DNA of 64,000 bases from NCBI RefSeq assembly GCF_026151205.1, contig NC_087072.1:3057375-3121374 (forward strand). Direction: 5' to 3'. Positions 25,401-59,907 of the stretch are shown here, piece by piece. Both the position numbers and the translations under genes were made by a program. The notes under the pieces are model-generated. The model was not told where the DNA came from. It made no database searches and worked only from the letters and a program-made list of their open reading frames with translations. Origin of the DNA: Bolinopsis microptera (Eukaryota; Ctenophora; Tentaculata; Lobata; Bolinopsidae). The stretch's first letter is position 1; each line of letters starts with the position of its first letter.

Positions 25401-28400
25401 GACAATAAAGGCGGGAACAGCTGAAGCCGGAAAGAAGTCTAGTTACCTGCTGAGAGTGGACGGGATTGCTGACTACTCTGCATCTTCTACCCTAGATGTC
25501 GCAAGTTTGTGCTTACTTATCATAAATATTTTTCCATTATCCTCTTTCGAGGGCCTTTTACCATGTTGGAATTGCTTCAGGTTCCACGCGTACGTTTACA
25601 ATTTCCCCTAACGTTTGTGCCTAAATAAACCTCTTCTCTCAGCGATAAAATACGAGCCGTCTACGATAAACCTAGTCCTGGGTACCTCCTACAAGTTCAC
25701 TGTCACTTTAACGGGATACTCCGCTGACTACTCTTCCAAACTCGCCTGGATGCTGGACTCAACCAAGCTTACTGCCGAAACTGTAAGTGATTTGGAGGTT
25801 GTGTAGCATAAACCTATATCGTTCGATTGATAAAAACGATATGATGTGCTTACAGAGATTTATAAGACACTCAAAATAATCTGCATAACAACAACTCAAT
25901 TCTGACCGAACTAATAATAAATCTGTCACAGCCGGTATGGACGGCGGAAACGAAGACCTTGACTTCAATTGTAAACGCTGTCGGAGCCAAGTCCGGGGCT
26001 CCTAACAATCTCAAGTTCATCATGACAACTAGCTATTCTACTTCTGAAGCAATGGCTAAGATTGAAGTTTCAGGTTCGAATCAATGTTAAACAATGAATA
26101 TTTGCTTCGAGTAAAGTTTTAGAGATTTATGAGATTTACATGAAATTGGCATATGGCATGCTCGGAAAGAATATCTATTGTGACTATAATAATTGTATAT
26201 TAGATTGGCGACGCTTTCTAAAATTGATAATAAATGTCCTTAATAATTTGTCCTTTCCTAGTTGAAATCTCGTGTCTCTTTTTCGCAGTGTGATCTAGTT
26301 TTCTTCATCCCGAATTGATTTAGCTCTCTTCAAAACCTTGGTCACATGATCTGAACTGTTGAATGTGAAATCCTCCATTTGAGACAGCACCTCGCTCATT
26401 TTATCATCAATCCCATTTTCCAGCTCTTCTTTCGACAATATCATTGCAAATTTCCTCAAATTCGAGGGATCTAGTGGAATTTCTCTAGCTGGGGGCACAC
26501 CAAAACTTCTAGAATGAACTACTGTCGGTTCCATGGCTCTCAGCTCTGCTTTCTTTTTACCAATAATACTCTGCTCCGTCTTATCACCAGCCCTCTGAAA
26601 CTCCAATTGTGCCTCTTTTACACTGGAGGTTGGGTTGTTCCTGACTTTGCTTAATTCCTGAACAAATTTCTTACGACTTAGGGGATCTTGCGGAATTTGT
26701 CTCGCTTGGGGCACAGCACCAGAGCTTCTAGAATACACTACTGTCGGTTCCATGGCTTTCAGTTCTGCTTCCTTCCTATCAATAATAATCTGCTGCAGCT
26801 CCATGATAGTCTTCTGATTCTTTATCTTCTCCTCTCTGAGCTCCTCAACAGCTGTAGCAAGCGGCAAAGCATTCTGTAAAAGCGGAACGCTGCAAGTGTG
26901 AAGCAAGCAGCTCACAGCTTCCAGCCACTCACACAGCTGCCCTCGTGTCACGTGTCCCTGGTTCAAGGTTTCTGATCGTATACTCTGATGATCGGTCAGG
27001 CTTAGTGTTTGACATATGTCATCGAGAATTGTGTCCTGAGCATTCACCACTTGTTCGATAAAATCCTTGCTGAACGGCCCCCTGGTTAACTGTTCCATGT
27101 ATTTACTGGTGAGAGAAGCAGACATCTTCAATAGAGTATTTGTGCGCTGAGGTTGTTTTTGGTTGTATTTCTTTAAGTAGAACAAAGCCTAATGTTCACC
27201 AGCAATAACAACTACGGAAGCAAAAGACAGAAAATAACGAGTGTAATAAAAAGATTTTATTTTGACAGTTAGCATCAAATATCGCACAAACCTGCGGAGA
27301 TCGTGTGAGCGTGTCTAACGCTCCCGCTAAATGTAACACTGTTCCCAGAGATCCACTACGAGTCACACGTGCAGATCAAGGAAGGAAGTTCACTGATGCT
27401 CACGTGTAAGGTGACCAACTCTCATAATGACATCACGGCACAGGTCACCTGGACTAACGATGGGAAGAGTATGGCTACTGGAGGTGATATCACCATCACC
27501 CCTCAGTACACCACTGGCACCAAGATATTCGAGTCAGCTCTCAAGGTTTTCTTTTTTATATAGTTGACATTGTTTATTATCTCGTCTATTTTAATGATAG
27601 TGTTCGTTTCAGATTAATTCGTATATGTGACTCCCACTGATTGTCAGTCTCAGTTTTAATCTCTGATTTCCTGACAGGTTACCAACTACAAGAAAGATGA
27701 CACAATCTACACGTGTGCAGTTACCATGGCCGGGTCGACAACCAAAGTCGCCAAGAATATCTGGCAGTTCAAGTTCTTTGAAACTAGCCAAGCTGTTAAA
27801 GTCGGGGAGGCAACCACCACACTCACCTGCAAAGTTAGCGGCGCTGAGCTCAAACCCACTTCGTGGACTTGGACTCCTGCCAAGACTTCAGTTTACTTCG
27901 AGGTGCGTTTCTTTATACAGTGACTAATCCTTTTCAAATGAAATAGCTTAAATTATTTTACGAAGAACTCTTAACATCTTCAATCTTGTCTGTGTGAAAT
28001 TACCATGGTGAATTAGGCAAATAGGTACAATGCTGACCGGCTATTAACCGGTTAATATTAGCCGGTTAATAGCCAGTCGACATTTTACCTATTTGCCGTA
28101 AATTATTACCGAATCTAAAATTAAAATGTTCAGCAATCAGAGAGTGAATGGAACAATGACGAAGGATCCCAGGAGAGTTACATCAAACTCTTCAATATTA
28201 GGGAAGATCAGGACTTCGTCTGCAAAGCTATAACTGGAGGATCTTCTTTTGAGAAGGCAGTCGTGGCTAATGCCTACAGTAAGTTTATCTTATTTAGAAT
28301 CGGTTTGTTCTTACCAACTTAATATGAGCTGTATATTGACCAAAGGTCTCAAATGATCAATTACTATAACCCATAACCACATAACCACCACCAGCAATGA

Positions 28401-31400: not shown

Positions 31401-34400
31401 ATTAAAAATAATTATTTTGAAATTGCTAACTCCTCGCAGCACTGACCGCCTCCTCTACGACGGTAAATTACGGAGACAATGCAAAGTTGACTTGCATCCT
31501 CAAAGGATCAAGTGCAGTACCTACCATCACTTTCAAAGATGGAAATACGGTCTTAGCAGACGTTGCGGTAAGTTTTGAATCATGGTTTTTTTTTTTGGGA
31601 AAATACATAACATTCTTAATCCGTATACAAATCAGTTGTTTAACGCCGAAAAAGAGTAGTAACTGTAAGGACTAGGGAGATCTATGAGTAAAACTTTTTT
31701 TAATTCTTCCAACTTTAGTACCAGGAACTCTGAAACATACAATGCTTTATAGTCCATTTTTTAATAAACTTTAACTCATGAACCTACTTTATGTTTTAGA
31801 AGACTCCATTAGTGAACGGAATGTTGACCGCCACTGTGACGACCCCCAACACTGTTACCTCTGACAAAACCTACACCTGCGAGTTTGTGATAGCAGGGGT
31901 AAAGTTCACTGCTAGCCCTAAGATTGATGTCATCAAACTGGTAGCTACCGGAGTAACTGCTGTCCCCGCCGGATCACCGTATACCTTTACATGTTCATAC
32001 AGGTAACAGTCAGCTCCTTCCCAAAACATGGCAGCTTACGGTCACCTCAACAAATATTACTCTCGCTTGAACGTCCGCAAAATTCTAGTCACATGACCCA
32101 ACAATCATGATCCAACTTTACCGATTCTGTTGCAGTGAATCACAAGAGACACACACAGTGATATGGACAGGATCAGTAGGTGAGACAACGAACCAGGCTG
32201 GTACAGCTACAACAGCCGGCAAGACTGGTTCCAGTACCTTGACAGTGGCAAAGATAGCGGCAGACTCACACGTGACCTGCAGTATTGGAGAGGCGAACGC
32301 TCACATTGCTCTGGACATTTACGGTTAGTTGTCTTCTTAAATCTTCGGGAAAGTGTTGTGTGGGGATCATAATAGATTATCATCTACATTTTGACATAAT
32401 GACCAATAATACTGTGACTGATATCTAAATGCTGACAAATGACGGACCCTCTCCTCAGACCTGACAGTGACCATGAACCCGACTACTAAACTGTACTCCG
32501 GAGATTCAGTCAGTATCACGTGTTCCGTCTCAGGACTGAAATCTAGCACCGAGACAACCTGGAAGTGGTTCTCTGGGGCCAATAAGGAGATCACCTCAGG
32601 GATCACTTCCGCTCACGGAAACTCTGTTCTGGTCATGACCGGGTGGGTAAAACAGCACCAGTTAAATTAAGTTAAATTAAGTTAAATTAAGTTAAATTAA
32701 GTTAAATTAAGTTAAATTAAGTTAAATTAAGTTAAATTAAGTTAAATTAAGTTAAATTAAGTTAAATTAAGTTAAATTAAGTTAAATTAAGTTAAATTAA
32801 GTTAAATTAAGTTAAATTAAGTTAAATTAAGTTAAATTAAGTTAAATTAAGTTAAATTAAGTTAAATTAAGTTAAATTAAGTTAAATTAAGTTAAATTAA
32901 GTTAAATTAAGTTAAATTAAGTTAAATTAAGTTAACTTACTCGGATTAATTGTCTGGAGAGACTTACAAATTATCTTCTTCGCAGTAACTAGGCACAAAT
33001 TGCTTACTGAAAGTTACATTTTTTTAAATGTTAAATACCTTGTACTCATACATAAATGATTTAAATATCGTTGTCTATTCACACCACTTTAGAGTTATAC
33101 GGGTTCTTGCTAGTAATTATAAATCAACAACATGTTTTCAAAATCTCTTTATTGACAAGAAGAAAGGTACTCAAAAAGTAAGACTCTGCATTGTATAAAA
33201 GTATTTTCTAGCTCAAGTTTACAAATCCTGCTCGCCTACTGTAACACTACAATTCATTACCACGGAAGTTATAATTTCCTGTATTGGCGTTAACGTTTTG
33301 GTTGAGAACCTGCCCTCCAGACCCAATCTCTACGAAGGTCCACGACTCCACTGCGGGTTTATTTATTGGGTTATTCCCACCGTACGCTCGAGTGTTTCCC
33401 ACTATCTTAATCTTTGCTGGAAGAGATATGAGTGGGAATTCTGCGTACCAACACCCTTTGTCACCGTACTTCTTATCTTGTTGCATCCAGTTTGTGTCAC
33501 CATACCTTTTGAGTGAACCGTGTTCTTTTATGTAGATATCACCGCTGCCTCGATAAGCTATGATCATCCGATTATTACTGACGCCTGATAAGGGTGGAGA
33601 AGGACATTACATTCAATAAACTGTGAGGGTATATCGAGGAATAGATTTATCCTAAAGAAACTACGTTATTTTACGATTAAGACTCAAATCTCCTAAGTTA
33701 TGAGATAAGTTCCAAGTCTTGTGCTGAAAACAAAAAAGGATAATATTTAGGAAACTCACCCAAATATTGAATGTCTCTTATAGGCCCTGAACCCCTTTGA
33801 TAAGACATAGTTGTTAAAACCAACTGAGACAAACATAGCAAAACGATAGATAGAAACATTCCCGCACAAGCAAAACACAAGCAAAACACAAGTAAAGGTC
33901 AATAAATGAACGTATAAAGCTGGAAAGCTGAGTATAGCACTGCTAGTGAGATCATAACCAAAACAAAACTCGTGACCACTACGTAACTTGAGTAGGATTA
34001 TCTGTACTAAATTTAATATATATGTTGAAGGCAAATGAAGTATTAGATGTACATTGTGCATAGAACAACCCATTTATTCCTCAACTTTTGGTCAAATGGG
34101 CATGGGCATCGATGGGCAACAGCTTAAACTTGAGTTATGCTGAAAATAAACATCATGATCGCCGTCCTCTAATTAGCAAGAGTACGGTATTAGAAATATT
34201 TATTTTTCGATTTTTAGTTAGTGTAACGCGAGACATTGAGTAAATTATACTTAAATTGGTAGTTGATTTCCGTTACTTTTGTTAGTGGGCTGACAGAGTG
34301 ACACGAGTAATTGTGATGAGCAATTATCACATAGATTGTGAGAGGTTTGTGTCGGAAGGCGGGTTGACTTAAAGGAACGAAGAAGTATTTTCTGAGTTTT

Positions 34401-37400: not shown

Positions 37401-40400
37401 TTCTAAGCCTACACCCAATTTTGATCAAGTTTGACAGTAATAATTTTCAGACACGAAGATAGAGAAGGTACGAGTTGAGAAGGGTAGTACAGCAACAGTA
37501 ACCTGTAAGCTTGTCTCCTACACCGGCACCGCACTCACTAAACTAGAAGTAACAGCAACAGACGGCACCACCAACAAGAACAACGTGGTTACAACTTCCA
37601 CCGCCAGGGAGGTTACTCTCCAGATTGATAATGTTAGCAAGAAGTGGACCACTTCCTGTTTAGCCACCGTTAACGGGGTCACGTTCACTGACTCCTCCCT
37701 TATATCCCAGTATAGTAAGTCATTTGTTGTGTTTATTTGAGTGGCCGTGTCATTTTATTTTGATTTTAAACCACCCAACTTTAACAGAAATGTAGTATGC
37801 ATCTCTACTGTAACTTGTTAAAAGTACTCGGAACTGCGATTAGTAACAAATTATTTCAGCGTTCACACTGAAGTTGAACAATGCGGCTACATCAGCTACT
37901 AACTGGGTTGATTTGAACCAAGCCAGCACTATGGAGTGTGAGGTTACTGGTAGTGATGACGCTATTTCTGATGCTCCGGAATGGTTTAAATCGTCAACCA
38001 AGGTGAGAACTGATATTGAGATCAGGACATATTATTCGGACAAAAACTTATGGAACCTTTTCTTATGGTGATCGTTAGAGACTAAATTGCATGGTAGCTC
38101 ACAATCAACCATCAAATTTTGGATTATATTTTCAGGTATCAACAGGAATAACAACCACCAGCAACACCAAAACATCCCTGTCAGTCAACATTCCGGAGGA
38201 CTCTTCCTTCACCTGCACATTCCACTTTTCCAAGAACGACTGGGTCAGGAAGTATTTCACCCTGGTGACCAAGGGCTGTAAAACTCCCAGCGTTGCTCAC
38301 GGAGGATACACGCCAGTAAGTGAGCTAAGTAAAGTAGCTCCTGGTGCCGTGCTGTCTGTGTCCTGTACCAACACCACCAAATACCAACTCCAAGGAAACA
38401 GTGCTCTTACCTGTGGGAACACAAGGGACGGGGATACCAACTACTATGCTTACAACACAGATATCCCCACCTGCAAGTTCATGGGTGAGTTTATAAAATG
38501 CTGTCTGCTCGTTCAAGTTGCCTTTTACGACAAGGGCGGTAGATAACCTGGGACAACCTACTCTCAATTCACACCCACTATCCCTCCCTCAGGTGACTGT
38601 AACCTACTCTCAAATCACACCCACTATCCCTCCCTCAGGTGACTGTACCCTACTCTCAATTCACACCCACTATCCCTCCCTCAGGTGACTGTAACCTACT
38701 CTCAATTCACACCCACTATCCCTCCCTCAGGTGACTGTAACCTACTCTCGATTTACACCCACTATCCCTCCCTCAGGTGACTGTAACCTACTCTCAATTC
38801 ACACCCACTGTCCCTCCCTCAGGTGACTGTAACTTACTCTCAATTCACACCCACTATCCCTCCCTCAGGTGACTGTAACCTACTCTCAATTCACACCCAC
38901 TGTCCCTCCCTCAGGTGACTGTAACCTACTCTCGATTCACACCCATTATCCCTCCCTCAGGTGACTTTAACCTACTTTCAATTCACACCAACTATCCCTC
39001 CCTCAGGTGACTTTAACCTACTTTCAATTCACACCAACTATCCCTCCCTCAGGTGACTTTAACCTACTCTCAATTCACACCCACTATCCCTCCCTCAGGT
39101 GACTGTAACCTACTCTCAATTCACACGCACTATCCCTCCCTCAGGTGACTTTAACCTACTTTCAATTCACACCCACTATCCCTCCCTCAGGTGACTGTAC
39201 CCTACTCTCAATTCACACCCACTATCCCTCCCTCAGGTGACTGTAACCTACTCTCAATTCACACCCACTATCCCTCCCTCAGGTGACTGTAACCTACTCT
39301 CAATTCACACCCACTATCCCTCCCTCAGGTGACTGTAACCTACTCTCAATTCACACCCACTATCCCTCCCTCAGGTGACTGTAACCTACTCTCAATTCAC
39401 ACGCACTATCCCTCCCTCAGGTGACTTTAACCTACTTTCAATTCAGACCCACTATCCCTCCCTCAGGTGACTGTACCCTACTCTCAATTCACACCCACTA
39501 TCCCTCCCTCAGGTGACTGTAACCTACTCTCAATTCACACCCACTATCCCTCCCTCAGGTGACTGTAACCTACTCTCAATTCACACACACTATCCCTCCC
39601 TCAGGTGACTGTAACCTACTCTCAATTCACACCCACTATCCCTCCCTCAGGTGACTGTAACCTACTCTCAATTCACACCCACTATCCCTCCCTCAGGTGA
39701 CTTTAACCTACTCTCAATTCACACCCACTATCCCTCCCTCAGGTGACTGTAACCTACTCTCAATTCACACGCACTATCCCTCCCTCAGGTGACTTTAACC
39801 TACTTTCAATTCACACCCACTATCCCTCCCTCAGGTGACTGTACCCTACTCTCAATTCACACCCACTATCCCTCCCTCAGGTGACTGTAACCTACTCTCA
39901 ATTCACACCCACTATCCCTCCCTCAGGTGACTGTAACCTACTCTCAATTCACACCCACTATCCCTCCCTCAGGTGACTGTAACCTACTCTCAATTCACAC
40001 CCACTATCCCTCCCTCAGGTGACTGTAACCTACTCTCAATTCACACGCACTATCCCTCCCTCAGGTGACTTTAACCTACTTTCAATTCAGACCCACTATC
40101 CCTCCCTCAGGTGACTGTACCCTACTCTCAATTCACACCCACTATCCCTCCCTCAGGTGACTGTAACCTACTCTCAATTCACACCCACTATCCCTCCCTC
40201 AGGTGACTGTAACCTACTCTCAATTCACACCCACTATCCCTCCCTCAGGTGACTGTAACCTACTCTCAATTCACACCCACTATCCCTCCCTCAGGTGACT
40301 GTAACCTACTCTCAATTCACACCCACTATCCCTCCCTCAGGTGACTTTAACCTACTCTCAATTCACACCCACTATCCCTCCCTCAGGTGACTGTAACCTA

Positions 40401-43400
40401 CTCTCAATTCACACCCACTATCCCTCCCTCAGGTGACTGTAACCTACTCTCAATTCACACCCACTATCCCTCCCTCAGGTGACTGTAACCTACTCTCAAT
40501 TCACACCCACTATCCCTCCCTCAGGTGACTGTAACCTACTCTCAATTCACACCCACTATCCCTCCCTCAGGTGACTGTAACCTACTCTCAATTCACACAC
40601 ACTATCCCTCCCTCAGGTGACTGTAACCTACTCTCAATTCACACCCACTATCCCTCCCTCAGGTGACTGTAACCTACTCTCAATTCACACCCACTATCCC
40701 TCCCTCAGGTGACTGTAACCTACTCTCAATTCACACACACTATCCCTCCCTCAGGTGACTGTAACCTACTCTCAATTCACACCCACTATCCATCCCTCAG
40801 GTGACTGTAACCTACTCTTAATTCACACCCACTATCCCTCCCTCAGGTGACTGTACCCTACTCTCAATTCACACCCACTATCCCTCCCTCAGGTGACTGT
40901 AACCTACTCTCAATTCACACCCACTATCCCTCCCTCAGGTGACTGTAACCTACTCTCAATTCACACGCACTATCCCTCCCTCAGGTGACTGTAACCTACT
41001 CTCAATTCACACCCACTATCCCTCCCTCAGGTGACTGTAACCTACTCTCAATTCACACCCACTATCCCTCCCTCAGGTGACTGTAACCTACTCTCAATTC
41101 ACACCCACTATCCCTCCCTCAGGTGACTGTAACCTACTCTCAATTCACACCCACTATCCCTCCCTCAGGTGACTTTAACCTACTCTCAATTCACACCCAC
41201 TATCCCTCCCTCAGGTGACTGTAACCTACTCTCAATTCACACCCACTATCCCTCCCTCAGGTGACTGTAACCTACTCTCAATTCACACCCACTATCCCTC
41301 CCTCAGGTGACTGTAACCTACTCTCAATTCACACACACTATCCCTCCCTCAGGTGACTGTAACCTACTCTCAATTCACACACACTATCCCTCCCTCAGGT
41401 GACTGTAACCTACTCTCAATTCACACCCACTATCCCTCCCTCAGGTGACTGTAACCTACTCTTAATTCACACCCACTATCCCTCCCTCAGGTGACTGTAA
41501 CCTACTCTCAATTCACACACACTATCCCTCCCTCAGGTGACTGTAACCTACTCTCAATTCACACCCACTATCCCTCCCTCAGGTGACTGTAACCTACTCT
41601 CAATTCACACCCACTATCCCTCCCTCAGGTGACTGTAACCTACTCTCAATTCACACCCACTATCCCTCCCTCAGGTGACTGTAACCTACTCTCAATTCAC
41701 ACCCACTGTCCCTCCCTCAGGTGACTGTAACCTACTCTCAATTCACACCCACTATCCCTCCCTCAGGTGACTGTAACTTACTCTCAATTCACACCCACTA
41801 TCCCTCCCTCAGGTGACTGTAACCTACTCTCAATTCACACCCACTATCCCTCCCTCAGGTGACTGTAACCTACTCTCAATTCACACCCACTATCCCTCCC
41901 TCAGGTGACTGTAACCTACTCTCAATTCACACCAACTATCCCTCCCTCAGGTGACTGTAACCTACTCTCAATTCACACCCACTATCCCTCCCTCAGGTGA
42001 CTGTACCGACATTACCGCTCTCTTTGAATCTGGAACTATTTCCCCCGCCACCCCCTTCTTCAACGACCAGCTGTACACATTTACGTGTAACTCTGGGCAC
42101 AGACTGGACGGACAGGAGAAGATATCCTGCCACAATGACAACTGGCAGCACACCAGGCCAACGTGCAGCGCTATAGTGGACGCCTGTGGGACCGAACATT
42201 GGGGTAAAGCGTACGCTGACTTCTCAGGTCCCTACGTGAAGGGGGACAAGGTTCATGTCTACTGCAGCAGTGGTTACACCAACACCGGCACTGGTATTTA
42301 CACAGAGTTCCTATTCGAATTTTGAGTTCTCATTAGAGTTCCTATTAGAGTTCCTATTAGAGTTCCTATTAGAATTCATAGATCAACATTGAATTATATT
42401 GACAGTCAGGCATTCTAGATTATTGTTTCCACTTGCTGAATGCTGACACAAGAATATAGACCTAGTTTTAAGCTAATTGAATTGGTTGATAATATTGATT
42501 TGTTAAAGTAAAAAATACTAAAAATCTTATTCTCCCTCCTGAAGGAACTCTAGAGTGTGGAGAGAAAGGCTGGGATAAAACAGCAGAGTGTGTCAAGAAG
42601 CAGAGCAATCAGTGCGCCAGTATCGCCGTGACCAGCGGTGCTATGGTTTGTAAGAATGCTAAGAGCGAGGTGGTTACCAGCTATACAGCGGGAGTCACGT
42701 GCGAGATAGCTTGTGAAACCGGTTACCGAACAGTGGGAAATACTGATGTAAGTTTAATAAATTGAACAAGTTTTTTTCGGTCTCAAGTATATTTTAATGT
42801 AAAGTTTATATCTAACAAATAATTACGACTGTGAAATGAAAATTATTGTCGTTTATGACAAAATTATCTTTTTTGCAGCCGATAGAGTGCAAGTCTACGG
42901 GAGTATGGGATCGTAACTCGTACCCGTCGTGTGCCGCCTACCAACCACCCACCCACCGCGACCTACAAGTCTCCCTCTCCTTCTCCACCTCGTACTGTGC
43001 CAGTGAAACTGAGCAGAAAAAGATGCAGACTGCTGTCTCTACTTCTCTTACTGATGTTAAGCAAATATCGTGTCTGAAGAACAAAAAGTGCGAAATAACC
43101 CACTTCACCTGTGCTAAGGACGGTGACAAGTCTTTCAAGGTGACGTTGAAATTGAACCAGATTGCGGACATGTCTAACACAGCAATACTGACTGATTCAG
43201 CTACAGAGATCACAGCAGCTAAAGATACCCTCAGTTTCACTATCACTTCTGCCAAGAAAAAGAGGAGTGTTATCCAGGGCCTAAAGATTCAGAAGAGAGG
43301 AACTACTCTAACATTCAGTCCCAGTGCTGTGACAAAAGCAGCCCAAACCTCCACCTGTGCTTCCAATACATTCTTAGAGAACAATCTCTGTGGTAAGACA

Positions 43401-44708
43401 AATGTTAAAAATTGTTTTCATTTTAATTGGTGGTTAAATCACTTGCAACTTTTTCGATAAGCTCATCACTACCTTTATTTTATATAAGTACGATTAATCC
43501 TTCGAAGAGCTTGATCTATTCTGGAGCCTAAACTCACCCCCCCCCCCCCCCCCCCTCACCCCCTTGTAAACCACCACCCATAACCACGTGTCCCCTCAGT
43601 GGCGTGCCCTGGAGGATACTATCTAAAGAGTGGAGCTTGTGAGGCTTGTGCTGTCGGCACATACAATCCGTCTGCTGGTGCCATCAAGTGTCTCGCATGT
43701 ACCGCCCCTGAAACTACTCTGGCAATGGGTTCAAATGCAGAGACGCAGTGTACGAAGACTTGCGAAGTTCCTCAAGTGGACAACGTTAACACCACCACCA
43801 TTCCTGTGAGTTTCTTTACTCGTGGCGTGACGTCATAACATGTGGTGTGACGTCATAACACGTAGTGTGATGTCATGACACGTGGGACAAAGTTTTGTTA
43901 AATGATTATAATTATACAGGAACATTTCATAAGACTAAGAGTATGTTGATTATCTTTAATTATTTCTCTTTCTTTCTCTCTAACCCTGCTCTCCCTCCAG
44001 ATGGGAAGTAAGATAGAAGCAGGAGCGGTGGTGTACTACACGTGTGATGACAAGTACACTATAGCTCACTCTTCTGTGTACACCTGTGCGCCTGGTCACG
44101 AGCACCAGATCATACCCAAGTGTGAAAGTAAGTCGTGTTATATTAAATATATAGTCACGTGATGTTATTTACTTTTAGTCACGTGAGATGTTATTTAGTC
44201 ACGCAGTATCTTATTGACATCGTGTGATAACTTATAGCATCTCGCAGTTATATTTAAGTTACGTTAATGACGTCACTTCAACAGAAACTAACGGTCACAC
44301 GTTGTTCAGGTGAAAACAAGACGATTATGTGGATATTAATCGCAGTATGCGGGGGTATTTTCATCTTAGCTCTGTTCTTATTGGTCTGCTTCTGCTGTGC
44401 CATCAAGACAAGAAAAAAAGATGACAACACCAATAGTAGTATTAGTGAGGCTGATAACGATAATTACATCTTAGAGAACAAGTTAGTGTGAAGTATTATT
44501 AATTAAAGGATTGTTTCTAAGAAATACTATAGTTGTGAATAATTGATGGATGTTTTTATGATTGCATCTGAGGACATGATGTAAATGGTAAAGACTCAGT
44601 CTATTTTTGCAGTATTACAAACTAATTATGGGAGCATTATTTCAACTTCTTTTCAGATACTCATCAGCAGAATACAGTCCTAGAGCTCAAGAAAACTCCA
44701 AAGTGTAA
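3617..44708 (+). CDS. giant Ig-like/CCP transmembrane receptor, about 75 exons
   Basis: ATG at 3617 opens a signal peptide (MIIQVYGALILAVTLPLGAW) split from the rest by a phase-1 intron. Exons follow to 44708. Ig-like domains have the usual Cys, central Trp and Y-x-C pattern; domain borders are almost all phase-1 introns, and many domains carry a second intron in the middle in phase 0 or 2. Later parts hold CCP domains, a basic cleavage-type site, a GCC2/GCC3 module, one transmembrane helix and a short tail. Checking exon lengths against phase, all junctions agree except exon 2/3 (4166/4325) and exon 7/8 (7460 to about 7831). Predicted length is about 5,500 residues. Family knowledge: large Ig/CCP ectodomains serve adhesion or self/non-self recognition. 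A recognition role here is inference; no named orthologue is recognised. Confidence 0.85.
4769..6178 (-). mobile_element. 5'-truncated LINE (non-LTR retrotransposon), reverse transcriptase C-terminus
   Basis: Minus-strand reading from 6178 gives a reverse transcriptase tail starting at the catalytic motif (YSDDID). It runs through the conserved region LLYNCNSWA...HRKHLRRIL...RWRMLGHILR and GRRGRPCLNLLDVIRKDL. The frame is interrupted by a DNA transposon (4872-5449) and resumes with NLDIRLKNLTDFEDLRFL to a stop at 4769-4771. Everything upstream of the YxDD motif (endonuclease, RT fingers) is absent, as expected for a 5'-truncated insertion. It lies antisense in intron 3 of the receptor. The clade is not certain. 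Confidence 0.85.
4872..5449. mobile_element. DNA transposon (TIR CCTTACAAGACA, TA target) inside the LINE
   Basis: Terminal inverted repeats CCTTACAAGACATTTTT are flanked by TA on both sides (4870-4871 and 5450-5451). Removing the element and one TA restores an uninterrupted LINE reading frame (KDL-T-S-RNLDIR), so the empty site is implied by the host element itself. Inside each end lies a 70-bp subterminal repeat in direct orientation (about 4896-4965 and 5347-5417) containing CGCCATATTTTCGGACCGCC. An open frame of about 90 codons inside (minus, 5153-5434) has no recognisable transposase motif, so the element is probably non-autonomous. A TA duplication is typical of Tc1/mariner and some other superfamilies. 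Confidence 0.8.
6303..8406 (+). CDS. receptor exons 4-9: Ig-like domains and cysteine-rich module
   Basis: Exon 4 (6303-6581) is a complete Ig-like domain (TTTLTCTV, FKWLDS, TTYKCVV). Exon 5 (6711-6872) is a shorter Ig-like piece (GTINCVV). Exon 6 (7060-7161) resembles the start of a CCP module (GDEVYASCPAGYNLIG), and exon 7 (7354-7460) continues it with two cysteines. Exon 8 ends at 8043 and starts near 7831; exon 9 is 8297-8406, and both are cysteine-rich. Exon 7 leaves phase 0, but no acceptor for exon 8 fits that phase, so this join is unresolved. The sequence before exon 8 (7580-7830) has several scattered CCCCAG copies. Confidence 0.7.
8994..10086 (+). CDS. receptor exons 10-13: PAN/apple-like module and an Ig half
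   Basis: Exons 8994-9101, 9237-9356, 9454-9540 and 9943-10086 join in frame, all phase 1. The first two read LADAKSKCLTTSG-DCGGITYEP...KYTLRVGPDL...EISWIG, which matches the general PAN/apple pattern (Ala-rich helix, Cys, then CxGI/VxY and a Leu-rich strand ending in SW). Exon 12 adds two cysteines. Exon 13 has the second half of an Ig-like domain (ATLSVTKVTADVTYSC). The PAN assignment is from pattern memory and moderate. Confidence 0.6.
10202..10347. repeat. 146-bp near-perfect palindrome in receptor intron 13
   Basis: The left arm beginning CTGTAGTTT(A/T)AAAGATGACC is matched base for base on the opposite strand by the right arm ending at 10347, with only two or three mismatches across about 62 bases. 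The centre is (AT)-rich with almost no loop. It could be a small MITE or a perfect hairpin. It ends 40 bp upstream of the exon at 10388. Confidence 0.9.
10388..13215 (+). CDS. receptor exons 14-20: tandem Ig-like domains
   Basis: Exons 10388-10675, 10832-10987, 11086-11247, 11579-11878, 12050-12355, 12461-12766 and 12928-13215 all start and end in phase 1. Most encode one whole Ig-like domain each; 10832-10987 and 11086-11247 split one domain. Typical landmarks are ALTITCTA and FTCYTDFG in the first and SISCTLNYG with YTCEFKY in 12461-12766. The exons at 12461 and 12928 form a two-domain unit repeated in the next block. Confidence 0.88.
11485..11527. repeat. 21-bp AT-rich palindromic unit, two copies
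   Basis: Two tandem copies of an ATAATGTACATTATACAATGT unit, less one edge base, each itself nearly palindromic, in intron 16. Short and of no evident function. Confidence 0.7.
13418..15142 (+). CDS. receptor exons 21-23: second copy of a two-domain Ig unit
   Basis: Exons 13418-13572 (phase 1 to 0), 13696-13837 (0 to 1) and 14846-15142 (phase 1). The first two together encode an Ig domain clearly related to the single exon 12461-12766: both have TGPDSV/LGPDSV before the Trp and YTCQFKY/YTCEFKY. Exon 14846-15142 is the counterpart of 12928-13215 (CTFTGNE in both, KCLFEMTT against ECKFEMAT, ending VVRE). A DNA transposon fills the intron between the second and third exons. Confidence 0.88.
13902..14777. 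mobile_element. DNA transposon (TIR CCTTACTCGGGA, TA target)
   Basis: Terminal inverted repeats CCTTACTCGGGA are flanked by TA on each side (13900-13901 and 14778-14779). Subterminal repeats of about 80 bp lie in direct orientation at both ends (13920-14005 and 14680-14755), each holding TCCGCCATATTTTTCCCGG. An open frame of 98 codons (14184-14480, acidic Asn/Asp-rich end) shows no transposase signature I recognise. Architecture, CCTTAC termini and TA target match the element at 4872-5449, although the interiors differ. Confidence 0.8.
15319..22082 (+). CDS. receptor exons 24-39: Ig-like domains mostly split by mid-domain introns
   Basis: Exons 15319-15473, 15649-15978, 16198-16321, 16499-16574, 16768-16967, 17180-17303, 17420-17589, 17815-17990, 19703-19841, 19953-20080, 20188-20323, 20451-20741, 20846-20975, 21160-21308, 21430-21547 and 21919-22082 all keep frame. 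Apart from the undivided domain at 20451-20741, domains are cut near the middle in phase 0 or 2 and joined to the next in phase 1. Exon 15649-15978 fuses the second half of one domain with the first half of the next. The pairs 15319/15649 and 17815/19703 are duplicates (FSFSDGTDTW against FTFTDGTKTW, then GTLNL against GTLTL). The intron 17991-19702 carries two DNA elements. Confidence 0.87.
18200..18487. mobile_element. hAT-type MITE with perfect 8-bp target duplication
   Basis: Inverted termini CAGTGGCGTAACG / CGTTACGCCACTG are flanked by identical 8-bp direct repeats GGTGTGGG (18192-18199 and 18488-18495). CAGTGGCG-type termini with an 8-bp duplication are the hallmark of hAT elements. At 288 bp, GC-rich with repeated GGCGCCCCC runs and no coding frame, it is non-autonomous. 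The perfect duplication suggests a fairly young insertion. Confidence 0.93.
18512..19460. mobile_element. 949-bp TIR element (ACTAACGGGTGATGA termini)
   Basis: A 26-bp inverted repeat starting ACTAACGGGTGATGA and ending in AAAAAATGG lies at 18512-18537 and 19435-19460 with one mismatch. No clear target duplication is visible. The interior has no convincing transposase; an open frame at 19205-19399 is short. It is probably a non-autonomous DNA transposon of a superfamily I cannot name, and sits only 16 bp from the hAT MITE copy. Confidence 0.75.
22285..23364 (+). CDS. receptor exons 40-42: Ig half plus an unrecognised module
   Basis: Exon 22285-22425 is an Ig first half (AKVTCKV). Exon 22613-23029 (139 codons) is different: LQIRYTAHPDNSEKFVNLYD, then HECGQSVWVTVPSEE, IWTISKTSTHLTLKQNEKL and a last cysteine, with no Ig spacing. 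It looks like a compact beta-sandwich module, perhaps related to the FAMeT-type domain found in some animal surface proteins, but I cannot place it. Exon 23269-23364 adds two cysteines. All junctions are phase 1. Confidence 0.75.
23510..25504 (+). CDS. receptor exon 43: 2-kb exon with about five fused Ig-like domains
   Basis: A single uninterrupted 1,995-base exon, phase 1 at both ends. After a Cys-containing start (CKSFILV...KETCPTIK) it encodes serial Ig-like domains with landmarks TILTCGYEG, YTCNHEW, SLTCSVSH, ATCKISLDG, TVTCEVKG, YTCKVVF and AFTCTVTES. Neighbouring domains are split over two exons, so intron loss, for instance through a reverse-transcribed copy, or domain amplification within one exon are both possible. 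Confidence 0.92.
25643..30054 (+). CDS. receptor exons 44-53: Ig-like domains
   Basis: Exons 25643-25782, 25932-26073, 27349-27545, 27678-27902, 28134-28278, 28395-28733, 28858-29028, 29261-29365, 29550-29687 and 29890-30054 join in frame. Exon 27678-27902 is phase 0 at both ends and fuses a second half (YTCAVTMAG) with the next first half (TLTCKVSG). Exon 28395-28733 lacks the Cys pair and may be a decayed domain. The intron 26074-27348 contains an antisense gene. Confidence 0.87.
26295..27125 (-). CDS. intronless coiled-coil protein nested antisense in the receptor gene
   Basis: A 276-codon frame starts MSASLTSKYMEQLTRG (ATG at 27125-27123, purine at -3). An in-frame upstream extension to 27185 exists but lacks a better start. 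The middle (ELREEKIKNQKTIMELQQ and following) is heptad-rich. A block of about 36 residues, KEAELKAMEPTVVYSRSSG to DPLSRKKF, is repeated downstream as KKAELRAMEPTVVHSRSFG to DPSNLRKF, an internal duplication. No introns and no poly-A tract are visible; an old retrocopy that stayed open, or a genuine single-exon gene, are both possible. The family is not recognised. Confidence 0.7.
   Translation of the reverse strand: MSASLTSKYMEQLTRGPFSKDFIEQVVNAQDTILDDICQTLSLTDHQSIRSETLNQGHVTRGQLCEWLEAVSCLLHTCSVPLLQNALPLATAVEELREEKIKNQKTIMELQQIIIDRKEAELKAMEPTVVYSRSSGAVPQARQIPQDPLSRKKFVQELSKVRNNPTSSVKEAQLEFQRAGDKTEQSIIGKKKAELRAMEPTVVHSRSFGVPPAREIPLDPSNLRKFAMILSKEELENGIDDKMSEVLSQMEDFTFNSSDHVTKVLKRAKSIRDEEN
28013..28098. 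repeat. 86-bp hairpin-forming palindrome
   Basis: Arms of about 43 bases with essentially no loop: GGCAAATAGGTACAATG is mirrored by CATTTTACCTATTTGCC, and GGCTATTAACCGGTTAAT by its complement. It lies in receptor intron 47, about 35 bp before the acceptor of exon 28134. It is probably a minimal MITE or a palindrome. Confidence 0.88.
30189..31298 (+). CDS. receptor exon 54: 1.1-kb exon with fused Ig-like domains
   Basis: A single exon of 1,110 bases, phase 1 at both ends, encoding an atypical first domain and then three Ig-like domains (NLLCSVTGS, TITCHLDG, TVVCTLNG with following Y-x-C strands). Together with exon 23510-25504 it is one of two places where the usual mid-domain and border introns are missing. 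Confidence 0.9.
31440..38002 (+). CDS. receptor exons 55-67: Ig-like domains
   Basis: Exons 31440-31567, 31800-32002, 32136-32323, 32459-32642, 34949-35031, 35146-35354, 35465-35687, 35949-36137, 36236-36384, 36645-36852, 37092-37256, 37451-37714 and 37860-38002 keep frame throughout. Several fuse the second half of one domain with the first half of the next (31800, 35465, 36645). The domain made of 32459-32642 and 34949-35031 is separated by a 2.3-kb intron holding a tandem array and an antisense gene. Confidence 0.87.
32661..32930. repeat. 10-bp tandem repeat (GTTAAATTAA), 27 copies
   Basis: Twenty-seven perfect copies in register, starting 18 bp after the exon that ends at 32642. Perfect homogeneity suggests recent expansion. 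Confidence 0.97.
33247..33859 (-). CDS. two-exon small secreted protein nested antisense in the receptor gene
   Basis: Exon 1 is 33760-33859 (ATG at 33859-33857), donor GTGAGT at 33759-33754, phase 1; exon 2 is 33247-33584, ending in TAG. Lengths sum to 438 bases, 145 residues plus stop. The N-terminus MFLSIVLLCLSQLVLTTMS is a clear signal peptide. The mature part is Gly/Asn-rich and aromatic (YRGSGDIYIKEHG, DKGCWYAEFPL) with a single cysteine and ends NYNFRGNEL. An AATAAA signal lies on the minus strand at 33153-33148, about 95 bases past the stop. The family is not recognised. Signal peptide, phase-matched intron and polyadenylation signal together support a real gene. Confidence 0.75.
33860..34948. 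other. intronic sequence without a recognised feature
   Basis: Remainder of receptor intron 58, AT-rich. It probably contains the promoter of the antisense secreted gene at its left edge. Open frames here lack protein-like composition. Confidence 0.4.
38136..38484 (+). CDS. receptor exon 68: Ig second half and first clear CCP domain
   Basis: Phase 0 to phase 1. It starts with an Ig second half (SSFTCTFHF) and continues into a CCP/sushi domain (CKTPSVAHGGYTPV, LSVSCTNTT, ALTCGNT, PTCKFMG), marking the change from Ig to CCP architecture. Its donor (GTGAGT, 38485) opens the intron filled by the 46-bp array. Confidence 0.9.
38557..41996 (+). repeat. 46-bp minisatellite carrying a splice acceptor/donor in every unit
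   Basis: About 75 units in strict 46-bp register. The acceptor-like AG occurs at 38591-38592 and then every 46 bases to the genuine acceptor at 41995-41996; marker variants elsewhere fall at exact multiples of 46. The core of each unit is CCCTCCCTCAG followed by GTGACTGTA. The last unit is the real 3' splice site of exon 69, and its first nine coding bases are repeat sequence. CAG/GTGACT also matches the 5' splice-site consensus CAG/GTRAGT at all but one position. Variants (GTGACTTTAA, GTGACTGTACC, CACTGTCCC) recur in blocks. Confidence 0.97.
41997..44127 (+). CDS. receptor exons 69-73: CCP domains, cleavable region and GCC2/GCC3 module
   Basis: Exons 41997-42293, 42545-42747, 42879-43392, 43600-43805 and 44001-44127. 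CCP patterns include GDCTDITAL...YTFTCNSGHRLDG...ISCHNDNW and VTCEIACETGYRTVG. The third exon then has a segment of about 130 residues with four cysteines and two basic sites (KKKRS encoded at 43254-43268, QKRG shortly after) resembling furin-type cleavage sites. Exon 43600-43805 is a GCC2/GCC3 ephrin-receptor-like module (CPGGYYLKSGACEACAVGTY). The last exon closes a final CCP. CCP plus GCC2/GCC3 also occurs in SVEP1-type proteins. Confidence 0.87.
42303..42375. repeat. 12-bp tandem repeat (GAGTTCCTATTA)
   Basis: About four to five imperfect copies beginning nine bases after the exon that ends at 42293. Confidence 0.8.
43537..43555. repeat. poly(C) run of 19
   Basis: Uninterrupted run of cytosines about 45 bases upstream of the acceptor at 43598-43599, part of an extended pyrimidine-rich stretch. 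Confidence 0.95.
43824..43880. repeat. 20-bp repeat with perfect CRE palindromes
   Basis: Three copies of a 20-bp unit (GTGTGACGTCATAACACGTG-like) in the intron after 43805. Two hold a perfect TGACGTCA (43828-43835 and 43848-43855); the third has TGATGTCA. Further perfect TGACGTCA sites lie at 44268-44275, 48772-48779 and 48800-48807. CRE function is inference; CREB/ATF proteins bind this palindrome. Confidence 0.75.
44310..44708 (+). CDS. receptor last exons: transmembrane helix and two possible tails
   Basis: Exon 74 starts at 44310 and encodes IMWILIAVCGGIFILALFLL as a single transmembrane helix, followed by the basic stop-transfer stretch KTRKKD and a short cytoplasmic tail. Two endings are supported. 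Reading straight through gives ...ILENKLV and a TGA at 44489-44491. A GTTAGT donor at 44482 joined in frame to the acceptor before 44657 gives ...ILENKYSSAEYSPRAQENSK plus V and a stop at 44706-44708. The spliced tail adds two tyrosines. No ITIM or ITAM is present. Confidence 0.85.
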
Positions 44709-56400: not shown

Positions 56401-59400
56401 TCCTTGACAAGTGCTCCTCCTCCATGTAAGAGCGAGGGGGAGGTTGTTGGACTGTGTGTTGTTGTTGTGGCGGGGTAGCGGCCACCACCTGCATAGGGCG
56501 CGACACGTGCTGCTTCTTGGGGACACGTGCACGGTTTACTCCCTTGTTGGATACTATAACCTGGGAACATGACATTTGTAGTTGAGTAAAAACGAGTGCA
56601 TTGAGCAAGAGTTGTGTTGATTGCCATGCTGTGGAGTATTGTGTACATATTAAAATGGGTAAGTACTGGGTAAGTAGTGTGTAAGTAGTGTGTAAGTAGT
56701 GGGTAAGTACTGGGTAAGTAGTGTGTAAGTACTAGGTAAGTAGTGTGTAAGTACTGGGTAAGTAGTGTGTAAGTACTAGGTAAGTAGTGTGTAAGTACTA
56801 GGTAAGTAGTGTGTAAGTACTGGGTAAGTAGTGTGTAAGTACTAGGTAAGTAGTGTGTAAGTACTAGGTAAGTAGTGTGTAAGTACTAGGTAAGTAGTGT
56901 GTAAGTACTAGGTAAGTAGTGTGTAAGTACTAGGTAAGTAGTGTGTAAGTAGTGTGTAAGTAGTGGGTAAGTACTGGGTAAGTAGTGTGTAAGTACTAGG
57001 TAAGTAGTGTGTAAGTACTGGGTAAGTAGTGTGTAAGTACTAGGTAAGTAGTGTGTAAGTACTAGGTAAGTAGTGTGTAAGTAGTGGGTAAGTACTGGGT
57101 AAGTAGTGTGTAAGTACTAGGTAAGTAGTGTGTAAGTACTGGGTAAGTAGTGTGTAAGTACTAGGTAAGTAGTGTGTAAGTACTAGGTAAGTAGTGTGTA
57201 AGTACTGGGTAAGTAGTGTGTAAGTACTGGGTAAGTAGTGTGTAAGTACTAGGTAAGTAGTGTGTAAGTACTGGGTAAGTAGTGTGTAAGTACTAGGTAA
57301 GTAGTGTGTAAGTACTAGGTAAGTAGTGTGTAAGTACTAGGTAAGTAGTGTGTAAGTACTGGGTAAGTAGTGTGTAAGTACTAGGTAAGTAGTGTGTAAG
57401 TACTGGGTAAGTAGTGTGTAAGTACTAGGTAAGTAGTGTGTAAGTACTAGGTAAGTAGTGTGTAAGTACTAGGTAAGTAGTGTGTAAGTACTGGGTAAGT
57501 AGTGTGTAAGTACTAGGTAAGTAGTGTGTAAGTACTAGGTAAGTAGTGTGTAAGTATTATCTGGTTACCTCCATAGTGCCACCAGGGTACTCGGAGTGTT
57601 CCTCCTCAATATATTGAACACTCCGCTCCTGACCCTGCTCATCCAGTACTATTTGCATTCCTTCTCCTTCCTCTAACTCTTCTCCTGATAACACGGTCGT
57701 TAGTGCGGAACCTGCGGAATACACACGTAACACACACGTTAAAAAGCCTGATTTTATAATGGAATTTATAAAGAACAATTTCCGGATTCCGGAAGTGCGT
57801 ATCATTAAAAAGTACAAGAATAAAGATGTTTGATCAGGACAGTCCTACAGACTTCTCGAAGGGTGCTAAATAATCATAGTTTCATAATTAAACATGAATA
57901 AAAAAGAGTGCAGGAAGAGAAGAACCAAGAAACTAAGTAAAGTAAAATGTGGCTAGATCTTAGCAGTATTCAGGAAGCCTGACCACTAAGGGTAGACTCT
58001 AGGGTTAGGTAAGGGTTATAGTAAGGATAATAGTGAGGGTTAATAATAGTTACGGTTAAATTATAAGTAGATCAGGGTACGAAGCGCAAATATCATCGCA
58101 AAACCTAGTTATCAAGTTCAACTCAAGCACAGTTGCTTACCATCATATCCCTCTATATGCTCCTCAATAACGTGAGCGATAACTTGGTGAGTTGGCTCAA
58201 TGTAATCATCCCCGGACTCCACAATCTGGGCATTTCCTTTCTTGTACTTCCCACTTCTTCTTTTGGGTAACCTGTACAGAGCAGTTAGTAGAGTCGCTTA
58301 AATTATCCATCACCAGGTTATGAAAATTGAGCTTCAAAAAAGTGGGATCAACAAAATAAAATGTCTACACAAAATCAGAAAACTACAAACATGCAATATG
58401 CAAAGAAAAGTCCGGGAACCATAAAAACCTCATAAATTTCTTCTTAGGGCTCTGAGAAGGGCTGGTCTGTTCTCTCTCCTGATTCTCCCTCATTTGTCTC
58501 TTCTCCGCATTAGACCTCCTCCCTCTCTTCCCTCTAGGATGTACTATCTCCTCCTCTATAACATAACCTCCTGAACTCTGAGCTCCTCCGTGGTGCATTT
58601 CTTGTGGGGGTCTTTTTCTTCGACTAGCCTTTCTCTTTAACCCGTGCTTTTCTGGCATCTGATCTTCTTTCAGTCTTATCTCTATCGAGTTATCACCATA
58701 CTGAATATCTACGTCATTCCTTGATCCCCCATCTTTTTGTACCACTTGATGTCCTGAATGGACCAGGATGAGTACCGAGTATGAATAATCCCTACTTTAT
58801 TTGTTACAAATGTGAAGTAAAATTGCTAGTGCTTCTATGACCGACGTCTTAATCAAGCATTAAACGTTCAAAACTGAAATTTGTTTAGTCGAGTGTTATC
58901 TACTTATTTTATTGTAGTAAGAAAATGATGGTGGTATTATTGTAATCATCAGATAGTGTAACTTTTATCAAATATATTATTTGTTACTGCTAACCCTCGT
59001 TGCTGAGTAACATTTCTGGAAGCTGGTCAGATATGGCAGGGATAGAAGAATATTCATGTTCAGCTCCCTCAGGTAACTGAATTTCCTGGTCAGTGGAAAA
59101 CACCACCACTCCGTTGTCAGAGTACGTGACTTTGTTACAAATTACTGACGAGCCGTCCTGAAAGCAAGTTATCAGTGAAGCTCGGCAGTCGGTATATTAC
59201 ATTCAAATACAAATTAGGTATCAAGAGTTCATCAATCACCATTGTTATCGTACAAGCAATTTTATTTACCTAATCTGTACTATTACATGTTACATGTAAA
59301 AAGAAGGAGAAAGAAGAAACATACCTCGTTGTAGATAACAATAGGGTGACTAGTCATGTCTTGTAGGGAACCCAGTTCACTTGAGTCCTGACTAACTATC

Positions 59401-59907
59401 ACAATCTGACTTCCTTCTGGAACTGGAGAGGAACTTAAAGTTATTATACAAAAAAACTCATTCAACAGTTTGGATACATCACGTTATCTCGAATAAGACA
59501 TCGAAACGGGAAGTCGTTAAGTTAAAAATGAGGCGAATTATTAACAAAAATCAGTAGGTCGTCTACTTTGGAACACCCTGTATCAATTAATTTAAATACG
59601 TACTGTTGATCATATGTTCTCCCCCAAGCTCTCCAGGAGTTACGATCTCCTCAACCTGGCCATCAATCTGTCCATCAGCCGTAACAAGTCTGCCATCAAC
59701 TATCTGGCCCTCTATCACGTGACCCTGTATGTGTTGTTGCTGGTCCTCTCCCTGATCCGATTCCTGTTGTTCCTGCCGATGTTCCTGCCGGTGTTCCTGC
59801 CGGTGTTCCTGCCGGTGTTCTTGCCGGTGTTCTTGCCGGTGTTCCTGCCGGTGTTCCTGCCGGTGATGTTCGTGGTGGTCCTCATCCTGGACCCCCTCGT
59901 TCTCCAT
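50416..59907 (-). CDS. PRDM10/15-like PR-domain zinc-finger protein (20 exons)
   Basis: Minus-strand exons: 59604-59907 (ATG at 59907), 59325-59422, 58995-59157, 58429-58753, 58141-58271, 57569-57711, 56330-56560, 56051-56207, 55486-55751, 55221-55340, 54801-54927, 54210-54416, 53472-53667, 53120-53282, 52549-52674, 52176-52344, 51727-51846, 51448-51510, 51117-51317 and 50416-50876. The sum is 3,771 bases, 1,256 residues plus stop, with all phases matching. Exons 9-11 (about residues 520-688) encode a PR/SET domain (CSHPECRLYP, RVAEDN, NWTRLVRHSS, YLLTVRRIDAGDELVVWTN). C2H2 fingers follow (CYECGSMFKSPTGIQDHVRH; CRMCAFIY; CMTCFKKFGSAASHKKHM), then an AT-hook-like RRGRP and a Pro-rich tail. It has far fewer fingers than vertebrate PRDM10/15. 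Expected to be a nuclear transcription regulator. Confidence 0.87.
50889..50954. repeat. 11-bp tandem repeat next to a PRDM-gene acceptor
   Basis: About six copies of GAGGGGTCAGT. On the gene's sense (minus) strand it reads CCCTCACTGAC and runs into the pyrimidine tract and CAG acceptor of the last coding exon (exon ends at 50876). Confidence 0.9.
56655..57553. repeat. 22-bp minisatellite rich in GTAAGTA, about 41 copies
   Basis: The unit contains two GTAAGTA heptamers spaced by AGTGTGT or CTRG. On the plus strand GTAAGTA is an ideal 5' splice-site core, but the host gene is transcribed from the minus strand, where the same motif reads TACTTAC, one base from the branch-point consensus TACTAAC. 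It fills most of the intron between exons 57569-57711 and 56330-56560. Confidence 0.95.
59764..59868 (-). repeat. coding 12-bp repeat (EHRQ)n in exon 1 of the PRDM-like gene
   Basis: Tandem CTGTTCCTGCCGGTGTTC-like 12-bp units translate on the minus strand as about eight EHRQ tetrapeptides followed by EQQESDQ. The repeat stays in frame. A charged low-complexity linker is likely, with copy number that may vary between alleles. Confidence 0.9.

Follow-up and report, generated by a model that had tools for sequence, protein, structure and literature searches.

A 46-bp tandem repeat spanning a predicted intron-exon boundary of a putative cell-surface gene in the ctenophore Bolinopsis microptera

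An intron of a predicted receptor-like gene of the ctenophore Bolinopsis microptera contains 75 tandem copies of a 46-bp unit that, by the gene model, spans the intron's own boundary with the following Sushi exon. The window, i.e. the whole stretch of DNA that was analysed, has 64,000 nucleotides (nt) with a GC content of 40.9% (contig NC_087072.1, positions 3,057,375 to 3,121,374, forward strand), and positions below refer to it. We suggest, with a probability of about three in four, that the array is a minisatellite of the type called "mirage" in amphioxus, i.e. a recent expansion of a boundary segment in the lineage of this ctenophore, which is probably tolerated and not selected.

The array repeats a composite splice site in exact register

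Tandem Repeats Finder describes the array (Table 1) with a period of 46, 75.0 copies, 97% matches, 0% indels and a score of 6545. The sequence CTCAGGTGACT occurs 75 times within the window, and its spacing is exactly 46 bp in all 74 intervals. Each unit consists of a pyrimidine tract, an AG and a directly adjoining GTGACT, and this AG/GTGACT (the slash marks a splice junction) is present in 75 of 75 units. The units are closely similar, as 37 are identical to the consensus, only 17 unit types exist in all and the mean pairwise identity is 97.2%. Repeat finding and exact spacing thus bear out the original prediction of about 75 copies of such a unit, each forming a composite AG/GT site.

In the assembly of the same genome (264,652,675 bases, 232 contigs), where repeat counts are lower bounds, the core 17-mer CCCTCCCTCAGGTGACT has at least 74 exact places, all at the array, and its reversed control has 0; the single unit missing from these matches carries CCATCCCTCAG. 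No second site of the array unit is present among the matches listed for this assembly. A 23-mer of the unit has 0 matches in the prokaryote and viral contig collections, and no Rfam family reaches its gathering score between 30000 and 64000.

The unit joins the end of a predicted intron to the start of a Sushi exon

The host gene was modelled with a purpose-written single-sequence gene finder, in which the splice sites of the array were masked and introns shorter than 50 nt were disallowed. The start of the model was fixed by hand inside an Ig exon, so that its exon numbering differs from that of the original prediction. The model is a prediction in which some exons are surely wrong and several low-scoring exons are doubtful.

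In this model the array unit consists of 38 bases of the 3' end of the intron followed by the first 8 bases of the Sushi exon (GTGACTGT). Judged by phase and domain continuity, the last unit would provide the working acceptor of the full-length message. The 69 predicted introns have lengths of 98 to 3512 nt, and phase 1 is the start phase in 47 of 69 exons. The array-bearing intron is the longest of them with its 3512 nt, while the other 68 have 98 to 2306 nt with a median of 184, and 64 of these 68 are not longer than 600 nt. When cut to one unit, the array-bearing intron has 108 nt, i.e. it falls inside the range of the others.

When the array was left unmasked, the gene finder predicted 65 six-base microexons (AG/GTGACT/GTAACC etc.), of which 64 fell within the intron and the remaining one opened the Sushi exon. 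These were rejected as circular, because the unmasked run had learned its splice sites from the array itself; with the array masked, ACT/GTAACC outscores only 2 of the 69 donors.

A close relative appears to have a short intron with one unit

Relatives of both exons flanking the array were found. The only match at E <=10 to the open frame of the Sushi exon is P0004, encoded on a 958-bp contig, with 96% identity over 80% of that frame. The open frame of exon 64 is matched over 90% by P0005, encoded on a 1301-bp contig, with 91% identity, and P0005 continues into the 5' part of the intron. P0006 and P0007 are 63% and 59% identical to the open frame holding exon 64. Elsewhere in the gene, exon 34 has relatives with 97% (P0001), 79% (P0002) and 49% (P0003) identity in the protein database, among the best 7995 candidates scored. 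Six other matches to the Sushi exon in the own genome are only 29-32% identical, too distant for a comparison of paralogous borders.

The head of P0004 (MPFTTSAVDK...GQPALNLHPSPSGDC) is a frame that runs from intron sequence into the exon, and upstream of the exon it reads MPFTTSAVDKIIFGTFRFGQPALNLHPSPS-GDC, with the same Gly-Asp-Cys start as here. When the window sequence is collapsed to a single unit, residues 1-27 of P0004 align to the unique flank of the intron and to that one unit (E 1.1e-5). An alignment is likewise obtained with the real left end of the array (E 8.1e-7), since unit 1 is the same there as in the collapsed sequence, but then a 17-residue gap is needed before GDC; both E-values were obtained with a tiny subject set and relaxed settings. 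In P0004 the exon comes directly after the first unit, and there is no second unit.

The two proteins also fit each other. If a stop is assumed after the last nine residues of P0005, these and the first ten of P0004 can be read as two frames of one DNA stretch, for which 6 consistent DNA solutions exist compared with 0 in 2000 shuffled heads. It can therefore be inferred that the close relative has an ordinary 124-nt intron with one diverged unit. Between GGACAACCT and the AG, 37 nt are counted in the relative and 42 here, a difference of 5 nt that presupposes a correct alignment of GQP, while there are 0 indels in the units here; this speaks against a loss of copies during assembly of the relative.

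Given a relative with a single unit in a 124-nt intron, the array is most simply younger than the split from that relative and would have arisen at an ordinary short intron. One unit at the same border in the relative agrees with the original prediction that the array is an amplification of that very boundary. The same prediction had named ordinary short introns in related species as one part of the evidence against its reading of the array as a splicing device, and one relative appears to have such an intron. A gain of the intron by duplication of an AGGT segment was also considered, and was rejected on account of this relative, in which an intron with one unit seems to be present already.

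The units appear to have been copied in blocks and vary unevenly

At a distance of 14 units, 30 of 61 pairs are identical, including 9 non-consensus pairs, while neighbouring units are identical in 20 of 74 pairs, of which 2 are non-consensus. This lag-14 pattern points to block copying, as expected of minisatellites.

Only 1 of 18 columns is variable in columns 27-44 compared with 13 of 28 elsewhere (Fisher p 0.0034), and the longest invariant run has 14 columns (permutation p 0.038); however, these column limits were picked from the motif after the data had been seen, and multi-unit copying breaks the independence of the units. The AGGT columns alone are uninformative on selection, because with 15 variant types over 46 columns zero variants in these four are expected about one time in four.

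The array resembles the mirages of amphioxus

The original prediction knew of no described locus with this structure, but amphioxus provides a precedent. According to the excerpted text of PMC3087553, the globin genes BflGb6 and BflGb9 and the gene Adh3 contain "mirages", i.e. minisatellite-like tandem repeats of intron-exon boundaries, with Canestro et al. 2002 cited as the original source. The BflGb6 mirage covers an intron 3' end and the 5' part of the next exon in units of 150-160 bp, with 3 and 6 copies in two haplotypes, while the Adh3 units have 10-72 bp (PMC3087553). Many units keep AG/GT, length and somatic instability is reported, and reverse-transcription PCR (RT-PCR) suggested that regular splicing persists despite the mirages (PMC3087553).

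Three features of a mirage are found here as well: a tandem repeat (75 x 46 bp), a unit that spans a boundary according to both the gene model and the open frame of the relative, and an AG/GT kept in 75 of 75 units. As regards changes in length, what is seen is the single unit deduced for the close relative and the block copying within the array. As in BflGb6, the 3' end of an intron is joined to the start of an exon. The differences are that the mirages belong to a cephalochordate and were followed by RT-PCR, whereas the array of 75 x 46 bp belongs to a ctenophore and is described from its sequence. Our verdict is that the array is most probably a recent, extreme mirage at a 3' splice site, of a kind already known but with an extreme copy number. 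A literature search on ctenophore minisatellites and introns found no ctenophore boundary repeat, and neither "minisatellite" nor "intron" occurs in the main text of the ctenophore genome paper PMC11797021.

We suggest that the array arose through tandem duplication, in this lineage, of a 46-bp segment in which the last bases of a short intron are joined to the first 8 of the exon that follows. Growth to 75 copies would then have followed by ordinary minisatellite turnover, including the copying of multi-unit blocks, and the intron would have lengthened from about 108 nt to 3512 nt. Each unit brings a full acceptor, i.e. a pyrimidine tract, an AG and, in most units, a candidate branch point. 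Three outcomes could follow for a transcript: (i) the last acceptor is used, which would give the full-length mRNA; (ii) an upstream acceptor is used and then re-spliced at AG/GT, which would give the same final mRNA; or (iii) an upstream acceptor is used and the early stop causes the loss of the message. Probably the array is tolerated rather than selected.

Several observations weigh against this proposal. The DNA of the relative is deduced from open frames predicted on the 958- and 1301-bp contigs, these contigs may stem from different animals, and in principle copies could have been lost in the relative if short reads were assembled. The motif columns show less variation than would be expected of a purely neutral array, which is no more than suggestive of selection. 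Furthermore, none of the other boundaries of the host gene has a duplicated copy above the shuffled control (the best matches at the other 68 introns cover 18 of 30 bases for acceptors and 18 of 30 for donors, and shuffled controls reach 20). A general boundary-duplicating process is thus not visible in the host gene.

Upstream acceptors would lead to an early stop

As the original prediction had expected for upstream acceptors, all 74 non-terminal acceptors lead to an early stop, and they do so after the same 16-residue tail (GDCNLLSIHTHYPSLR or close variants, with 10 sequence variants). The open frame is given by the last acceptor only. A translated repeat is ruled out, as every inclusion runs into a stop (74 of 74).

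The 11 acceptors nearest to the 5' splice site would give introns of at most 600 nt, while use of the last one needs an intron of 3512 nt. In animals with short introns, splice sites are paired across the intron. If this is the case here, upstream acceptors should often win, and only onward splicing at AG/GTGACT could then save the message, which would otherwise be lost.

The array could act as a set of decoy or poison acceptors. Those near its 5' end would compete with the last one, and their use would yield a truncated product that lacks the membrane-anchor region, or message decay; the length of the array would then tune the amount of full-length receptor. The tail common to the 74 non-terminal acceptors and the 11 acceptors at usual intron distances are in line with such a role. 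However, the relative seems to be without the array, and any such control would be lineage-specific; in amphioxus, moreover, RT-PCR suggested that mirages leave regular splicing undisturbed (PMC3087553, in part). We consider this role unlikely.

The acceptor is strong, but the donor-like site is weak and coding

Splice sites were scored with a matrix trained on the 69 predicted introns of the host gene, the array's own acceptor included. The array acceptor outscores 60 of the 69 gene acceptors, and its score is reached by 0.45% of 2231 AGs. The motif TTCAC is present in 71 of 75 units, where 21 nt separate its A from the final base of the AG; as a motif match it fits the branch-point consensus yUnAy.

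On the donor side, CAG/GTGACT outscores 14 of the 69 gene donors and its score is reached by 4.6% of 2245 GTs. The sole difference between GTGACT and GTRAGT is at position +5, where C is found in 2 of 69 predicted donors, scoring 0.5 and 0.0 vs a median of 3.0. The donor TGG/GTGACT, which would be rebuilt by joining exon 64 to an array acceptor, outscores 12 of the 69 predicted donors.

GTGACT is the exon's own coding start for Gly-Asp-Cys and is weak as a donor; it is present in the units because the Sushi exon starts with these codons. Of the 69 predicted exons, six start with GT, including the Sushi exon that follows the array. Exon 70 was left out of this count, as its start in the model (44370) is probably wrong and the true start, judged by eye, lies at 44310, after an AG and with GTGA.

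Recursive splicing at zero-length exons was first known from sites in long introns. Later work on lariats has placed recursive sites in a wider range of introns (PMC10156609, as excerpted). The array units are like recursive sites in that a pyrimidine tract, AG and GT abut, but unlike the early known ones in that they would stem from an ancestral intron of about 108-124 nt and have a donor half that is both weak and coding.

In a recursive ratchet, an early array acceptor would be joined, the donor GTGACT rebuilt and splicing would go onward in steps of at least two units, to give one mRNA whichever acceptor is chosen first. We find this more doubtful than a decoy role. The AG/GTGACT of 75 of 75 units, the acceptors that outscore 60 of 69, the rebuilt TGG/GTGACT still above 12 of 69 donors and the depletion of variants in the motif columns are all compatible with it. 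So is intron length, as the first 11 acceptors would give introns of at most 600 nt, as in 64 of the 68 others, compared with 3512 nt for the last. Weak AGGT sites are also described to act as dual sites in human RNA (PMC10809524, in part). However, C at +5 is found in only 2 of 69 predicted donors, both low-scoring, and GTGACT is explained by coding, Gly-Asp-Cys being present in the single-copy relative too. Zero variants in the AGGT columns are expected about one time in four, and steps of 46 nt are shorter than the shortest predicted intron of 98 nt (with the model floor at 50 nt). In human short introns, conventional lariats are favoured over recursive ones (PMC10156609, in the portion consulted).

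A self-correcting version, in which any choice of acceptor is re-spliced to one mRNA and uncorrected messages give one uniform form without membrane anchor, appears slightly less probable again. If true, the array would be a length-tunable switch and a natural test bed with dozens of equal recursive sites. Abutting AG/GT had been taken as the signature of recursive splicing; by itself it is not one here, as six of 69 exons begin with GT and the relative without the array encodes the same Gly-Asp-Cys start. From the original prediction as a whole, the boundary amplification, the composite sites and the early stops are therefore retained, while the lack of precedent and AG/GT as a sign of recursion are not.

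Three further systems can be compared with the array. In the human UBC gene, a tandem array of dual-specific splice sites with one AGGT per unit is supported by RNA evidence (PMC10809524, in part). The array is like UBC in that each unit has one AGGT, a potential 3' and 5' site, and in that stretches from AGGT to AGGT are multiples of the unit. It is unlike the coding monomers of UBC, as the units here are intronic, 46 bp is not a multiple of 3 and stops follow in 74 of 74 cases. Reportedly, the human interferon-induced gene IFI6 (6-16) contains a minisatellite that gives its transcript multiple splice donor sites, as described by Turri et al. in 1995. There too, a minisatellite supplies many copies of one splice site, but these are donors, whereas the array supplies acceptors with weak donor-like sites. 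Introns can also be gained by tandem duplication of AGGT segments, including 24-bp repeats in fission yeasts (PMC4974935, as excerpted). In the fission yeasts introns lie across the repeats, and the array likewise offers tandem AGGT copies with potential splicing between them; here, however, the intron seems to be older than the array, and none would have been gained.

That the copy number is an assembly artefact, produced by inflation of a shorter or allele-specific array or by the choice of one haplotype, is very improbable, because the exact 46-bp register in 74 of 74 intervals and the scattered private variants look like natural turnover, although the array is found at one place only among the matches listed and the lag-14 block duplications could come from mis-assembly.

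The host gene and its surroundings

In the pieces submitted to Pfam, Ig domains, Sushi (PF00084) and Ephrin_rec_like (PF07699) were found, and by eye a hydrophobic segment and a short basic tail follow these domains. The product is predicted to be a large, receptor-like cell-surface protein. The features of the locus are listed in Table 1.

Table 1. Positions of the host gene, the array-bearing intron and their elements in the window.
Feature	Position	Strand	Remarks
Host gene, partial model of 70 exons	6287-44491	+	Ig, Sushi and Ephrin_rec_like domains, hydrophobic segment, short tail
Coding exon before the array-bearing intron (exon 64 in the partial model), ending in ...TCKFM-G/	38136-38484	+	Gene model; relatives P0005, P0006, P0007
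5' splice site GTGAGT of the array-bearing intron	38485-38490	+	TGG/GTGAGT outscores 62 of 69 gene donors
Unique intron sequence preceding the array, for the most part conserved in the close relative	38485-38554	+	C-terminal extension of P0005 and N-terminal extension of P0004
Array of 75 x 46-bp units, consensus AACCTACTCTCAATTCACACCCACTATCCCTCCCTCAGGTGACTGT	38555-42005	+	Columns 1-38 intron-type, columns 39-46 exon-type
Candidate branch-point match TTCAC, unit 1	38568-38572	+	A 21 nt before the last base of the AG
First array acceptor with adjoining donor-like site, AG/GTGACT	38591-38598	+	Use would give a 108-nt intron
AG of the last unit, putative working acceptor of the full-length message	41995-41996	+	Phase and domain continuity, gene model
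Sushi exon at the 3' end of the array-bearing intron (exon 65 in the partial model), beginning with GTGACTGTACC = (G)GDCT	41997-42293	+	Gene model, Pfam, relative P0004

Minisatellites are common in this region: counting periods of at least 10 and at least 5 copies, 17 are found in 264 kb made up of the window and the following 200 kb. Three of the 17 have units whose best acceptor scores at least 2.9, and this acceptor abuts a GT only in the array described here. Three other arrays of the host gene, with 10-, 12- and 20-bp units (32660-32939, 42324-42377 and 43821-43885), start 15-30 bases after predicted donors. An array at 56656-57556 has units of 22/44/66 bp that are rich in GTAAGT when read on the + strand. 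By eye, the gene at this place seems to be on the - strand, on which the array begins about a dozen bases after a probable donor ATGGAG/GTAACC, so that these donor-like sites would be antisense. A 12-bp array at 59768-59865 lies within an open frame of the - strand that reads as repeated HRQE.

An antisense open frame of 297 residues (26295-27188, - strand) lies inside a 1275-nt intron of the host gene (26074-27348) and has no Pfam match at E 0.001. Beside the Ig gene, an open frame of 292 residues (5337-6215, - strand) resembles, by eye, the remnant of a LINE-type element. Elsewhere in the assembly there are 111 homeodomain matches, on C1-C13 and C27; five of them at C9:1549413-1563968 and four at C4:15747925-15955173 have identical scores, which suggests local homeobox copies. 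Six of the homeodomains, judged by eye, look unlike Hox proteins.

Implications

The locus is worth testing, because 74 of its 75 acceptors would lead to the same truncated product and only the last to the full-length one, unless AG/GT is re-spliced. If confirmed by reads and RNA, the array would have by far the most copies among the boundary repeats of stated copy number, and it would carry the mirage phenomenon from lancelets to a ctenophore. Seventy-five near-identical acceptors, placed at 46-nt steps from one donor, form a natural experiment, which would measure both the effect of distance on 3' splice-site choice and the re-splicing of a weak AG/GT.

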